This document shows, piece after piece, positions 3,328 to 17,968 of a stretch of DNA of 22,050 nucleotides. The DNA is taken from positions 1 to 22,050 of the IMG/VR virus record IMGVR_UViG_3300037246_000642; one strand, given 5' to 3'. The translations under genes were made by a program, and so were the position numbers. This DNA comes from a virus. Below the pieces are notes generated by a model. The model ran no database searches. It had not been told where the DNA came from and saw only the letters and a list, made by a program, of their open reading frames with translations. The stretch's first letter is position 1. Each line of letters starts with the position of its first letter.

Positions 3328-4248
3328 CTACGAGATTTTCATCAACGCTTCGTGCACTTTAGCACCTTCCAGACGAATAGCGCCTGCATCCATTTCCGAG
3401 TAAACCTGAACCGAGTAATTCTTATCATCTCGTTCAGTGATTCTCGACGTAATATTCTCAGTCGTACCAAGAATAAGTCCATCTTCTGCCCATGCGAAAG
3501 TTCTTGAACAAGAACCATCGGTGCCATCGGCTGGTAGACGGTTGGACCAAATCCACTTGAATCCCATGTACGAGTCAACCTTACCGGTCATCAGAGTCTT
3601 AACTACATTAAAGTCAGAGCTTCCAACTTCTTCGAGGTCCAGCATATCGGAGATTTCCTGCGGAGTGACGCACCAATACTTGGCAATGTCAGCATCGACA
3701 TCGTCTTCGTTGAACGTCTGCATCATCGTCAGCATCTTAGCAAGGGTCATTACTGTCTCGGTCTGTGGCGTAGCCAGTGTTCCAAGAGCAGTGATAGTTC
3801 CATCACCATTCATGCTGCGTGAGTCGTCCTTAAACGCGATGGTTGTTCCACCGGATTGACCGGTAGCGACATCAGCATAAACAGAAGCGATGATAATATC
3901 ATCTTTCTTTCTACCGAGTGTCATAGCCTGTGCGTTAGCGTAAGGACTCTTAGGGTCAATTAACATTCTGAGACTGTCTGCGTTATCCAAGAGAGTCGCC
4001 GTATTGTAAGGCACCGGTGTCAACCGACGTCTACTATGCGGAATCTCGTTCAATGGTGTATCACCATGACGAGTTGTAATCTCTTGGGCATCAGCTTCAC
4101 CGAGTCTTTCAAAGTAAGCATTGCGTGCATTTGATACTGTCTCATTGCGAACGAAGCCCTGAAGTTTAGAGCCTTTCTGCTGTGAGAGCATGTATACCAA
4201 TGCGGAATACTGTTCTGTGAAAGCAGTTGTGACTGTACTTATAGCCAT
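3328..4248 (-). CDS. Major capsid protein
   Basis: A 306-residue protein with the pattern of a phage capsid family found in podoviruses that use the head-to-tail connector portal. The N-terminal helix reads FTEQYSALVYMLSQQKGSKL. Then come a FVRNETV segment, a region with HSRRRLTPVPYNTATLLDNADSLRM near residues 71-95, and LGRKKDDIIIAS near 111-122, the long spine-helix equivalent of HK97-fold proteins. The gene sits after scaffold, as expected for capsid assembly, and the length is normal for the family. The start ATG at 4248 is preceded by AAGGA. A micro-ORF of eight codons ends 11 bases upstream. No delta domain is visible, which is consistent with the separate scaffold gene. Confidence 0.85.
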   Translation of the reverse strand: MAISTVTTAFTEQYSALVYMLSQQKGSKLQGFVRNETVSNARNAYFERLGEADAQEITTRHGDTPLNEIPHSRRRLTPVPYNTATLLDNADSLRMLIDPKSPYANAQAMTLGRKKDDIIIASVYADVATGQSGGTTIAFKDDSRSMNGDGTITALGTLATPQTETVMTLAKMLTMMQTFNEDDVDADIAKYWCVTPQEISDMLDLEEVGSSDFNVVKTLMTGKVDSYMGFKWIWSNRLPADGTDGSCSRTFAWAEDGLILGTTENITSRITERDDKNYSVQVYSEMDAGAIRLEGAKVHEALMKIS

Positions 4249-4259
4249 TTCTACATTCC

Positions 4260-4286
4260 TTAATAGGAGTTACCATTAGTCGTCAT
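4260..4286 (-). other. Eight-codon micro-ORF upstream of the capsid gene (leader peptide candidate)
   Basis: The minus strand carries GGAGG five bases before an ATG at 4286 that opens MTTNGNSY and then TAA. It ends 11 bases before the capsid start. The Shine-Dalgarno is stronger than that of the capsid gene itself. It may be a leader peptide or a re-initiation device setting capsid translation, or chance. Confidence 0.3.
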
Positions 4287-4372
4287 GGCTACCTCCAACA
4301 AGGAGACCTGGACTACATTTCTGGTCTGCTAGACCACCGACCTTGCGGCTACCGGTTACCCGACAAGGGTAT
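4287..4372 (-). other. Structured untranslated segment between scaffold and capsid
   Basis: On the minus strand this short gap contains a perfect 6-bp hairpin TGGTCT-agc-AGACCA and a smaller CTCC-ttgtt-GGAG hairpin, the second just before the micro-ORF. No U-tract follows, so it is not a simple terminator. It is the widest gap within the head genes and could be an mRNA processing or stability element for the capsid message. Confidence 0.4.
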
Positions 4373-5212
4373 TTATTCTGGGTATGCTTCTGCGTTCAAT
4401 GCTGCTATTTCTTCTGTGATCTGTTTATGTCTAGCCGGACTTGTTTTAGCAAGCTCTCCGGTGATATAACCAGCTGTGTGCATTAATTCTTCTGCCTTTG
4501 CTATAGCATCCATAGGTGTACTCTTTGTGATACTAGCATCTATAATCTTATGTTCAACAAACTTGGCTGCAATGTCAGCAAGGAAGTTAGCTATCACAGG
4601 ATTGTTTCCGACCTGCTCTAGGATAGCGGCCTTATTTTCTTCGCTTACATTGTCATTAATCATGCGATTAGCTAGATGCAGTCGTTCTTCATAAGCCCCG
4701 CCCCACTCTTTCTTGAGTGCGGTTTCGGCATCAGTCATCTTCTGGGCTTCTGCTTGAGCTATTGCATCCTTCATTCCAGCTATACGGGCGTCATCAAGTG
4801 CTATTAAGTCTTGGACATCTTCCTGTCGCCAGCCTTTTTGGTGAGCAAACTCTTTGATTGATGTCTCGAACTCTTCATTAACTTCCATTCCTTCGATATG
4901 CTCAAAGGTGTAATCGCCAGCAGTAGCTGGTCTGAAGTTATCTTTAAATGCATCCCACTCGACATCTGTTGAATCAGCATTCGGCAAGGAAGTCATATTC
5001 TTGCCAATCATCTTCTGTGCATTAACTAGTTGCGAAGCAAGTCCCGCAACATTCTTAGTACTCTTGAGCGTGAGGTCGTTCCGTAAATCCTCATGTACTC
5101 CCAGCCCTTCCATCCAGCCTTCGTTTAAAATTCCACCTTCACCTACATACGAGACTGTCTCAGTCGCTACCTGCGTTTCTTCCGCAGACGCTTGTTCAGC
5201 TACCTCTGTCAT
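4373..5212 (-). CDS. Capsid scaffolding protein
   Basis: A 279-residue acidic protein rich in Ala, Glu and Lys with long predicted helices. It has an N-terminal disordered segment (EVAEQASAEETQVATETV), a motif GGILNEGWMEGLGVHEDLRND, then a KNVAGLASQLVNAQKMIGK helix. The latter two are typical of podoviral scaffold proteins, in which the segment corresponds to 'W...L..D...L..FKD...LAK.....Q..IGK'. A charged C-terminus would interact with the capsid protein encoded next. The length and the position between portal and capsid match the family. The start overlaps the previous stop as ATGA, so the two genes are translationally coupled. Confidence 0.8.
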   Translation of the reverse strand: MTEVAEQASAEETQVATETVSYVGEGGILNEGWMEGLGVHEDLRNDLTLKSTKNVAGLASQLVNAQKMIGKNMTSLPNADSTDVEWDAFKDNFRPATAGDYTFEHIEGMEVNEEFETSIKEFAHQKGWRQEDVQDLIALDDARIAGMKDAIAQAEAQKMTDAETALKKEWGGAYEERLHLANRMINDNVSEENKAAILEQVGNNPVIANFLADIAAKFVEHKIIDASITKSTPMDAIAKAEELMHTAGYITGELAKTSPARHKQITEEIAALNAEAYPE

Positions 5213-11212: not shown

Positions 11213-11228
11213 CTTCCACCGCCTCACC

Positions 11229-11277
11229 ACCGCCCTGCAACAACCCACGGTTGCTATTGTTCGACACTATAGGCGGT
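11229..11277 (+). other. Miniature tRNA-like element lacking a D-arm
   Basis: ACCGCC (11229-11234) pairs with GGCGGT (11272-11277) as an acceptor-like stem. Directly before the 3' strand is a T-arm-like hairpin: TATTG-TTCGACA-CTATA (4 of 5 pairs), whose loop has the canonical TTCRANN form. The rest is one hairpin, GCAAC with GTTGC around an 8-base loop (or CAACC-cac-GGTTG). There is no D-arm and no proper 7-base anticodon loop. At 49 bases it is too short for a normal tRNA. Confidence 0.4.
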
Positions 11278-11333
11278 ATTAAATGAGCCATAAGGCTAAA
11301 CTAATTCTTCACCACCAATTAGGAGTATGTATT

Positions 11334-13203: not shown

Positions 13204-13245
13204 CCTGCGCCGATAAGGTGTAGGTTAGACCTAGTTCGGCGCAGG
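13204..13245 (-). other. Long imperfect hairpin between two leftward small genes
   Basis: CCTGCGCCG (13204-13212) pairs perfectly with CGGCGCAGG (13237-13245). Inside, TAGGT-tag-ACCTA (13221-13233) forms a second helix. On the minus strand it starts 7 bases after the stop of the 13253-13432 gene and is followed by ACTTTCC, a poor U-tract. It may be a partial terminator or an mRNA stabiliser. Confidence 0.55.
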
Positions 13246-13252
13246 TTGAGGG

Positions 13253-13432
13253 CTAGTTTATCTCTGTGTAACCATATAATAATATTTCTCTGAAGGCTTT
13301 TTCCGTCTTAGCCACCACTTCAGGCTCGATTATGTTCCTTACCTTACGCAACCAGCTTGATGTGGCCTTGTATTCGGCGCGGGTGGTGTGTCTGTCTGGG
13401 TCTTTTAGTTTGATCTCGAATGCGTGGGTCAT
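13253..13432 (-). CDS. Small hypothetical protein, 59 residues
   Basis: A minus-strand ORF of 59 residues starting MTHAFEIKLKDPDRHTTRAE and including SSWLRKVRNIIEPEVVAKTE, then ending LLYGYTEIN. It is charged and largely helical. AAGGAAAG lies 4 bases before the ATG at 13432, a strong ribosome site. It lies directly after the 3' end of the structured non-coding region and is followed by a strong hairpin, so it is likely on the same transcript as that RNA. Not recognised. Confidence 0.65.
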   Translation of the reverse strand: MTHAFEIKLKDPDRHTTRAEYKATSSWLRKVRNIIEPEVVAKTEKAFREILLYGYTEIN

Positions 13433-13850
13433 GTTCTTTCCTTGTTTGTTAGATAGATAACTAACTTCTTAGTCTTATCCGGTTTACATCCCATTAGCAT
13501 GTAATAGGTACTGAAGCTAAAAGACTGTAACCGTGTCAGGTAGTGGAGGCTAGCAACCCCAATAGAATCTCGAACGAGATCATGCTGTTTTTGGTCGTGA
13601 GTTGTCACCGGTCGGACATTGCTCACTCTTTTTAGATACCCTGACATTCTGCCCCAGATTATTGTGCCATCCCGTGCTTAGCGTGGTTATGCACCTGTTC
13701 CAGAATATATATCACGTCCTTTTTTTGCTGACACAGCCGTCTTTGAAGTCAGCGGGATCTAAGTTCGTCGCCCATAAACCCTTTGAACCCGATAAGGGCG
13801 CGACCGAAGTCTACGCCCTACCGGTTTTCTATTCTTGATTGAAATCCAAA

Positions 13851-13920
13851 GCGGCTCCTGGGATCGAACCAGTGTCTTTCAAGCAGCCGTATCTGCTAGT
13901 CGCTAAAACCAGTCATCCGC
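13851..13920 (-). tRNA. tRNA-like element with short acceptor and abnormal anticodon loop
   Basis: On the minus strand GCGG/CCGC close a 70-base unit. It has a D-like arm (TGGT-TTTAGCG-ACTA), a hairpin GCAG-ATACGG-CTGC with a six-base loop where seven are needed, and CTGG-TTCGATC-CCAG with a canonical T-loop. Only four acceptor pairs form and the D-loop has no GG. A decaying tRNA, or a tRNA mimic that is part of the surrounding structured RNA. Confidence 0.35.
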
Positions 13921-14013
13921 AGACGCTGGCGGCCCTTAGATACTATCCAAGGGGAGGTTTAGTGGTTCCCTTACGACAGCCACTGCTGCCGAAGCTATTG
14001 CTTTATACACAAA

Positions 14014-14073
14014 ACCACCTCTTGGACTTGAACCAAGTAAGGGCCAGCCAGATTGCGACTCTAGCCAGGTGGT
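14014..14073 (-). tRNA. D-armless tRNA-like element
   Basis: On the minus strand a perfect 7-bp acceptor ACCACCT/AGGTGGT encloses a 7-bp hairpin GGCTAGA-GTCGCAA-TCTGGCT, an 8-base linker, and a perfect 5-bp T-arm CTTGG-TTCAAGT-CCAAG. The first hairpin's loop has U at position 33 and AA at 37-38, as in an anticodon loop, with CGC in the anticodon position. No D-arm exists: the anticodon-like hairpin follows the acceptor strand with no linker. At 60 bases it cannot be a standard bacterial tRNA. Confidence 0.45.
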
Positions 14074-14306
14074 ACACCGTAAGTTGTTTACACTAGGAGC
14101 GTCAACTTGATTAACCCTAGTAAATCTGATGGTATTCGGTTTAGCTTAATGCCCTTGAGGGGGCACGGTTTCCACCGATAAACCAACGTCCCTGCACCGC
14201 TAGGACGGCATTAAGCCATGCTTCGTTACCGCCCCTAGATACGCCTGTGAGAGGTAACTCTCTATCGAGAGGCGGGGGTGGTTGTTAGTTTAATTAGGGT
14301 GTGGCT

Positions 14307-14585
14307 CTATTCAAATGCCTTGGGGAATGCTTCTCTTATCCAATCATTTAGTCGTGAGCCAATCCCGTCGGGGTCTTGAATAAAGCCAGCCCCATCTTTT
14401 CTTATATCTTTTCTGAACTGAGTCAGCATCCTGCCATCTACTGATGTAGAGTGTTGACGGCTATCTATGTAATCGCAAGCCGTGTTATAATCATCCTTAA
14501 TCCTGTCCCAGTTGTCGTTTATAGATTTTTGCAGAATACCTAATAGAACTCCAGCCTTTCTATATTTGTTTGGTATGTCTCGCAT
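14307..14585 (-). CDS. Hypothetical protein of the leftward island, 92 residues
   Basis: A 92-residue charged helical protein beginning MRDIPNKYRKAGVLLGILQK. The start at 14585 is preferred over an in-frame ATG at 14633: the upstream ATG lies between the -10 box and the likely transcription start of the promoter at 14635-14663, whereas 14585 has AAAGGG 6 bases upstream. The untranslated leader can fold (CCCG-aaacaatg-CGGG). The middle is rich in Asp/Lys (DNWDRIKDDYNTACDYIDS). No family recognised. The stop is followed within about 25 bases by the first helix of the structured RNA region, so both probably share a transcript. Confidence 0.6.
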   Translation of the reverse strand: MRDIPNKYRKAGVLLGILQKSINDNWDRIKDDYNTACDYIDSRQHSTSVDGRMLTQFRKDIRKDGAGFIQDPDGIGSRLNDWIREAFPKAFE

Positions 14586-17871: not shown

Positions 17872-17941
17872 TACTGAGTAGCATAATTGGCAATGCACTG
17901 GCGATAGCCTTTAAGATGTGGGTTCGAGTCCCATCTCAGTT
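17872..17941 (+). tRNA. tRNA-like element without a usable anticodon arm
   Basis: Acceptor ACTGAG/CTCAGT (17873-17878 with 17935-17940) is followed by TA at positions 8-9. Then comes a perfect D-arm GCAT-AATTGGCA-ATGC with the GG of a D-loop, and a T-arm GTGGG-TTCGAGT-CCCAT with one G-U pair and a canonical T-loop. The 21 bases between them cannot form a 5-bp anticodon stem; only GGC-gata-GCC pairs. No decoding identity can be given. It lies in the 184-base gap between two plus-strand genes. Confidence 0.45.
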
Positions 17942-17968
17942 TTAATGACATTTTGTCTCCTTTCTTAG

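Follow-up and report, generated by a model that had tools for sequence, protein, structure and literature searches.

What is encoded by an 874-nt stretch of phage DNA (13433-14306, minus strand) that holds no convincing gene? The stretch lies in an IMG/VR phage fragment, the complete 22,050-nt record of which is the window analyzed here, and it comes from a bacteria-infecting virus sampled in the environment. Leftward structural genes (terminase, head-tail adaptor, head and tail proteins) occupy 1-10.4 kb, a rightward block (methyltransferase, exonuclease, and others) begins at 15.2 kb, and the gap sits between leftward genes for proteins of 108 and 59 aa. Neither protein has a family match, and the 108-aa protein has no relative in viral_contigs. 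A sequence-only reading had placed a very strongly structured RNA at 13470-14285, possibly a divergent member of the GOLLD or ROOL families or a new family. To our knowledge, very few large structured phage RNAs have been described, and none has a settled role.

Results and Discussion

The Gap Is Noncoding and Has Its Own Candidate Promoter

A protein-coding reading of the gap was rejected on the basis of codon usage and protein family searches. Under a codon model trained on 15 genes of the window, the three ORFs of at least 60 aa inside the gap score -0.02, -0.31, and -0.27 bits/codon, in the range of sham frames (-0.36 to +0.05 bits/codon), whereas both flanking ORFs are gene-like (Table 1). 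A 72-aa minus-strand ORF at 13429-13647 overlaps the start of the 59-aa gene by ATGA, yet it scores only -0.02 bits/codon and was rejected. The internal ORFs have no significant match in Pfam or PHROGs. The proposal of some 820 bases without a convincing gene therefore stands, for the full 874 nt, and the gap is indeed the biggest geneless stretch of the window.

A candidate promoter with a predicted transcription start at ~14280, just before the first helix, lies at the 5' side of the gap. It differs at two positions from the TTGACT-N17-TAAAAT boxes that occur, identical and without mismatch, at two upstream minus-strand genes (15128-15100 and 14663-14635). Besides the boxes, these two adjacent genes (regions 15128-15075 and 14663-14609, minus strand) have in common an identical leader word, CCCGAAACAAT, which within the window is found only there and is a possible operator. 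At the 3' edge of the RNA lies the GGAA Shine-Dalgarno-like sequence of the 59-aa gene, and no terminator-like site or hairpin lies between the RNA and this gene. A hairpin of ~10 bp (CCTGCGCCGA...TCGGCGCAGG, 13204-13246) without a T-run occupies the spacer between convergent genes farther along.

Table 1. Positions of the features discussed, in the window and in other phages (prefixed L)
Feature	Position	Strand	Remarks
Upstream gene, 108 aa	14307-14633	minus	start perhaps ~14585; codon score +0.14 bits/codon
Candidate promoter TTGAAT-N16-TAAACT	14287-14314	minus	consensus match only
Domain A, 5' hairpin CCGCCUCU...AGGGGCGG	14229-14275	minus	-22.0 kcal/mol
Domain B, 10-bp closing stem and inner hairpins	14144-14216	minus	z only -1.5
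Domain C, stem UUUACUAGG/CCUAGUGUAAA	14081-14124	minus	from sequence
TLS1, D-armless tRNA-like element	14014-14073	minus	ARAGORN mitochondrial mode; acceptor and T-arm scan
anti-TLS1	13926-13964	minus	predicted to pair with 14008-14051 (13 + 17 bp, probability ~0.95) in place of TLS1
TLS2, weaker tRNA-like element	13850-13904	minus	scan score 23, reached by shuffles
C(UUCG)G-capped hairpin	13789-13824	minus	14 bp, probability 0.98-0.99; between TLS2 and anti-TLS2
anti-TLS2	13730-13788	minus	predicted to pair with 13844-13893 (13 + 17 bp, probability ~0.95) in place of TLS2
3' part	13433-13690	minus	codon usage not gene-like, folding ordinary
Downstream small gene, 59 aa	13253-13432	minus	codon score +0.18 bits/codon
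Mini motif sites	L006:893-935, L006:248-285, L099:7793-7834, L107:2539-2578, L108:6818-6855, L186:9390-9431, L205:3760-3803, L210:7678-7719, L210:7418-7459, L247:180-223	minus
Mini motif sites	L182:7084-7124, L194:5399-5438, L217:474-516, L219:3884-3928, L248:242-284, L256:44-84	plus
Non-decoding tRNA-like elements	L107:5405-5476, L108:8612-8683, L099:4288-4386	plus	D-loop GG, canonical T-arm

Above-Chance Folding Is Confined to About 13690-14290

Among 840-nt windows on both strands, the minus-strand region has the lowest z of all (-3.38, 60 shuffles), and the same region on the plus strand reaches -2.45, with fold energies of -284.7 versus -263.6. Separate folding of the whole region (~850 nt) gave z values of -3.2 and -2.6 for the minus and plus strands. 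Local 75-nt folds on the minus strand average -19.4 kcal/mol at 13650-14290 versus -13.8 elsewhere, and 34% of them fall below -22 there versus 4% elsewhere. The excess is confined to about 13690-14290; the 3' third is comparable to shuffles, and 13433-13724 folds no better than they do (z about -0.3, or -0.32). This 3' part may be either a 3' domain or the leader of the 59-aa gene.

The z values by domain describe an RNA that is clearly but not extremely structured. Domain A is the strongest of the three 5' domains (14225-14292, z -3.2, with 1 of 300 shuffles as good). In domain B, a 10-bp closing stem, GCUUAAUGCC/GGCAUUAAGC, can form at 14216-14207/14153-14144 (minus strand); the fold that contains it has -30.6 versus -32.0 for the MFE, i.e., it lies 1.4 kcal/mol above. 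GGUUUA in the same domain is complementary to UAAACC just 3' of the stem, a possible pseudoknot. In domain C, the loop sequence AAGUUG could pair with CAACUU downstream (14108-14103/14086-14081) to give a putative H-type pseudoknot; by nested energy this domain is within chance (z -0.8). Three copies of GUAUCUA lie ~300 nt apart in the RNA, and a search for a repeat unit around them gave none.

Measured against these data, the sequence-only reading was correct for the most part. The region has the lowest z of the windows examined on either strand (-3.2 to -3.4), but "very strongly structured" overstates the case, and the proposed extent reaches too far on the 3' side. The count of at least ten helices is reached, although most of them are single-sequence predictions. 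The C(UUCG)G-capped hairpin is present as described (13824-13789), the 10-bp closing stem exists but is missing from the MFE of its domain, and the claimed pseudoknot has its AAGUUG/CAACUU complementarity and is only possible.

Two tRNA-like Elements Each Have a Predicted Competing Segment

TLS1 is a near-perfect tRNA-like element without a D-arm. Its 7-bp acceptor (ACCACCU/AGGUGGU) and its T-arm (CUUGG-UUCAAGU-CCAAG) are both perfect, the hairpin between them has a loop of 7 nt (GUCGCAA), and the element folds alone at -22.6 kcal/mol. ARAGORN names it a D-armless tRNA-Ala(cgc) without CCA, in the metazoan-mitochondrial mode (-mt) only. In the acceptor and T-arm scan it scores 31, versus at most 26 in 20 shuffles of the whole window. 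TLS2 has 6 of 7 acceptor pairs, a hairpin AGCAG/CUGCU, and a T-arm of canonical sequence (CUGG-UUCGAUC-CCAG). Both of the proposed tRNA-like units are thus present, but TLS2, with a score of 23, is within chance. Across 82 terminase-family loci and the window, the 161 kb outside long ORFs contain 11 T-arm motifs (one of the 11 being an ordinary tRNA, in L148), and the 737 kb inside them contain 2; in the gap region they are found on the minus strand only. Taken together, it is credible that the tRNA mimicry is real in at least one unit.

TLS1 and TLS2 were rejected as tRNA genes or as a tRNA array, as neither ARAGORN nor the tRNA model of Rfam recognizes a cloverleaf in them. Elsewhere in the window, 17872-17942 (plus strand, 29 nt past a stop codon) matches the Rfam tRNA model at 38 bits and is rejected by ARAGORN; a D-arm and a T-arm are present, but its anticodon arm is only GGC-GAUA-GCC, and so it looks unable to decode.

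Both modules are built in one order: tRNA-like element, hairpin, anti-segment. The anti-segments are predicted to pair with their tRNA-like elements in long hairpins (Table 1), and anti-TLS1 also contains a 9-bp hairpin at 13933-13953. In module 1 (13920-14075, z -2.8) the long hairpin has -59.2 versus -49.4 kcal/mol for the TLS1 form; in module 2 (13725-13915, z about -3.6, with 1 of 300 shuffles as good) the values are -71.0 versus -54.3 kcal/mol. The competing hairpins are therefore the more stable forms, by 10 and 17 kcal/mol for TLS1 and TLS2, respectively. On the basis of one sequence, the like order of the modules suggests a switch.

The RNA Matches No Known Family

The GOLLD and ROOL covariance models of Rfam 15 have no match at gathering, nor at E <= 5 or E <= 10, so membership in either family, as had been suggested, is not borne out even at permissive E-values. 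A scan of all of Rfam 15 returned nothing significant for the gap region, GOLLD, ROOL, tRNA, tmRNA, introns, and riboswitches included. For a group I or II intron, the best hit was group-II-D1D4-4 at 12.8 bits (gathering 49, E 2.3-3.9), and it was rejected; ARAGORN makes no tmRNA call, including with -m at an 80% threshold. A tRNA island of the GOLLD/ROOL type was likewise rejected: ARAGORN calls none anywhere in the window, and the one Rfam tRNA match is 3.6 kb away on the opposite strand. "Beside tRNAs" thus fits this locus only loosely, through that one match at 17872-17942 with its unusable anticodon arm.

Similarities to known systems nevertheless exist. The RNA is similar in size to GOLLD, is likewise phage-encoded, has possible pseudoknots, and contains tRNA-like elements, just as the GOLLD linker sometimes holds tRNAs (PMC12286853); it differs in having no Rfam match, tRNA island, or found homologues, and its units seem to be non-decoding. 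With ROOL, of which env-120 has 659 nt (PMC12286853), it shares the size class, the phage origin, and an elaborate predicted fold, but again neither an Rfam match nor a tRNA island. The units resemble D-armless mitochondrial tRNAs, viral tRNA-like structures, and the tRNA-like species of T-even phages in their 7-bp acceptor, their T-arm with a UUCRANN loop, and, in TLS1, a hairpin with a 7-nt loop and U33. Unlike that group, they lack CCA, their linker leaves no room for a canonical D region, their variable segment is long, and they lie within a larger RNA that supplies its own antisense segment. The best reading is that the window holds an analogue of GOLLD and ROOL and not a member of either. 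An unclassified structured phage RNA is credible, and the interpretation given in the sequence-only reading is supported in part: a sizable structured noncoding minus-strand RNA with tRNA-like units describes the region best.

Relatives Carry Non-Decoding tRNA-like Elements

Searches of phages, plasmids, viral_contigs, and genome_contigs returned no nucleotide homologue of the gap region, the latter two collections being searched with a DNA bait, an 85-aa pseudo-ORF that spans both tRNA-like units. Terminase-homologue loci (43-76% identity) show no nucleotide similarity to it, and searches with the 108-aa protein, methyltransferase, head-tail adaptor, and exonuclease led to no homologue of the region. 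The terminase family (L002-L016 and L099-L165) is a lineage of environmental phages; no terminase relative turned up in the genomes of 84,980 species of bacteria and archaea, and all those in a set of 50,697 phage records were distant (<60% identity).

The closest terminase relatives are at 72-76% identity, and the record of one, L099, reaches well past the equivalent place. It holds ~750 nt (3938-4690) on the terminase strand without a plus-strand ORF, 5-6 kb upstream of the terminase, including a non-decoding tRNA-like element with a D-arm and a T-arm. This stretch has no sequence similarity to the window RNA, folds weakly (z -1.6), and is a positional analogue only. The word TACGGTGTA, which precedes a tRNA-like unit in both, was discounted as expected by chance in a comparison of this size. 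Elements of the same kind are located near the terminase in L107 and L108, and all three are without a proper anticodon arm. The gaps of L007, L102, L110, and L138, inspected by eye, hold small ORFs and hairpins, none like the window RNA.

L006, L099, L107, and L108 also carry a smaller element of ~42 nt that has only an acceptor-like stem of 6-7 bp, an ACGG connector, and a T-arm with a UUCRAYU loop. A scan of the collection, with ACGG and the T-arm held fixed, found about 15 such mini motifs among many ordinary tRNAs; because the pattern fixed both, their constancy is not evidence. The acceptor stem does covary: 5 of 7 pairs are changed on both sides, and the covariation score is 0.33 versus 0.08 for shuffles and at most 0.07 for slid versions. 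In nearly all cases a stop codon precedes the motif by 4-10 nt, and where a start codon was found it lies about 28-63 nt past the motif. It has no Rfam match at a meaningful score. Phage mRNA punctuation is a possible role. In L108 (6257-7313, minus strand), several consecutive intergenic spacers carry GC-rich hairpins that resemble one another, each ahead of a Shine-Dalgarno sequence, and in one spacer the mini motif occupies that position. Like the window units, the mini motif stacks an acceptor-like stem on a T-arm and lies between genes, and it occurs in relatives of this phage. The window units differ in their greater length and in retaining a middle hairpin, and a search of the window with R1, a covariance model of the mini motif, gave no match at E values up to 10. 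A plus-strand candidate at 11228-11278 of the window was dropped, as it was not matched by R1.

Weighing the Explanations

The explanation that we favor, tentatively and at somewhat less than an even chance, is a new structured phage RNA, the tRNA-like units of which most likely serve RNase P-type processing that would yield a structured mature RNA. It builds directly on the noncoding status and position of the gap, the above-chance minus-strand folding of 13690-14290, and a TLS1 far beyond chance. The candidate promoter, the like order of the two modules, the scarcity of T-arm motifs inside ORFs, and the noncoding L099 stretch with its tRNA-like element also speak for it. A leftward transcript of about 640-850 nt would start near 14280, given use of the candidate promoter, and its 5' domains would fold locally, followed by the two like-built modules. 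During synthesis, each tRNA-like element would fold first and be bound by a tRNA-handling factor of the host, in all likelihood RNase P (with the 3' tRNase), which would cut at the ends of the element. Cutting would free a mature, stable RNA from the downstream 59-aa message, and modules that escape capture could close into the more stable long hairpins; a function in trans may follow. RNase P acts on tRNA-like structures and on certain operon mRNAs (reviewed in PMC11143913), and the simplest role for the units is therefore to direct processing of the leftward RNA. Counted against this explanation are the lower stability of TLS1 and TLS2 relative to the competing hairpins, the chance-level score of TLS2, the ordinary folding of the 3' third, the failure of the searches to find a homologue, the weak folding and dissimilar sequence of the L099 stretch, and the lack of a terminator-like site before the 59-aa gene.

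That same lack favors a rival explanation, a long structured cis leader of the 59-aa gene, for example one that switches between tRNA-like and long-hairpin forms; the shared strand, the Shine-Dalgarno sequence at the 3' edge, and the alternative pairings agree with it. We nonetheless consider it rather unlikely, as a phage leader of ~850 nt would be very long and the 250 nt adjoining the gene are the least structured. An ornate RNA of the GOLLD/ROOL kind, acting in trans as a large folded and perhaps multimeric molecule late in infection, with the tRNA-like units as structural domains or cargo, would account for the strong local folding of 13690-14290 and for the resemblance to GOLLD in size, origin, pseudoknots, and internal tRNA elements (PMC12286853). 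The failure of both models at permissive E-values and the lack of any conservation found make this unlikely too, if still worth serious thought.

Could the region instead be a decaying tRNA cluster, its units degenerate tRNA genes and the rest neutral spacer? TLS1, TLS2, and the 17872 unit do read as tRNAs with missing or broken arms, and no conservation is detectable. However, relic DNA seldom persists over 870 nt in a phage genome, the TLS1 stems are perfect, the folding exceeds that of shuffles, and relatives too have non-decoding tRNA-like elements in their spacers, so we find a relic improbable. Finally, the region might act at the DNA level, for instance as a replication origin or in packaging, close to where the minus- and plus-strand gene blocks diverge (~15.1 kb). 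The cumulative GC skew minimum at ~15 kb would fit, but the skew tracks gene direction, the minus strand folds better, and the T-arm motifs of the region are restricted to that strand; we give this explanation hardly any weight.

Implications

On a bolder reading, the locus could represent a new RNA class, a large phage RNA of switchable tRNA-mimic modules in a lineage that uses non-decoding elements as intergenic punctuation; we regard this broader proposal as an unlikely one that merits mention. The recurrence of the mini motif just past stop codons in a number of phages suggests more tRNA mimicry in phage messages than has been catalogued, and an RNA built around non-decoding tRNA mimics would give a concrete link to the tRNA-processing enzymes of the host.
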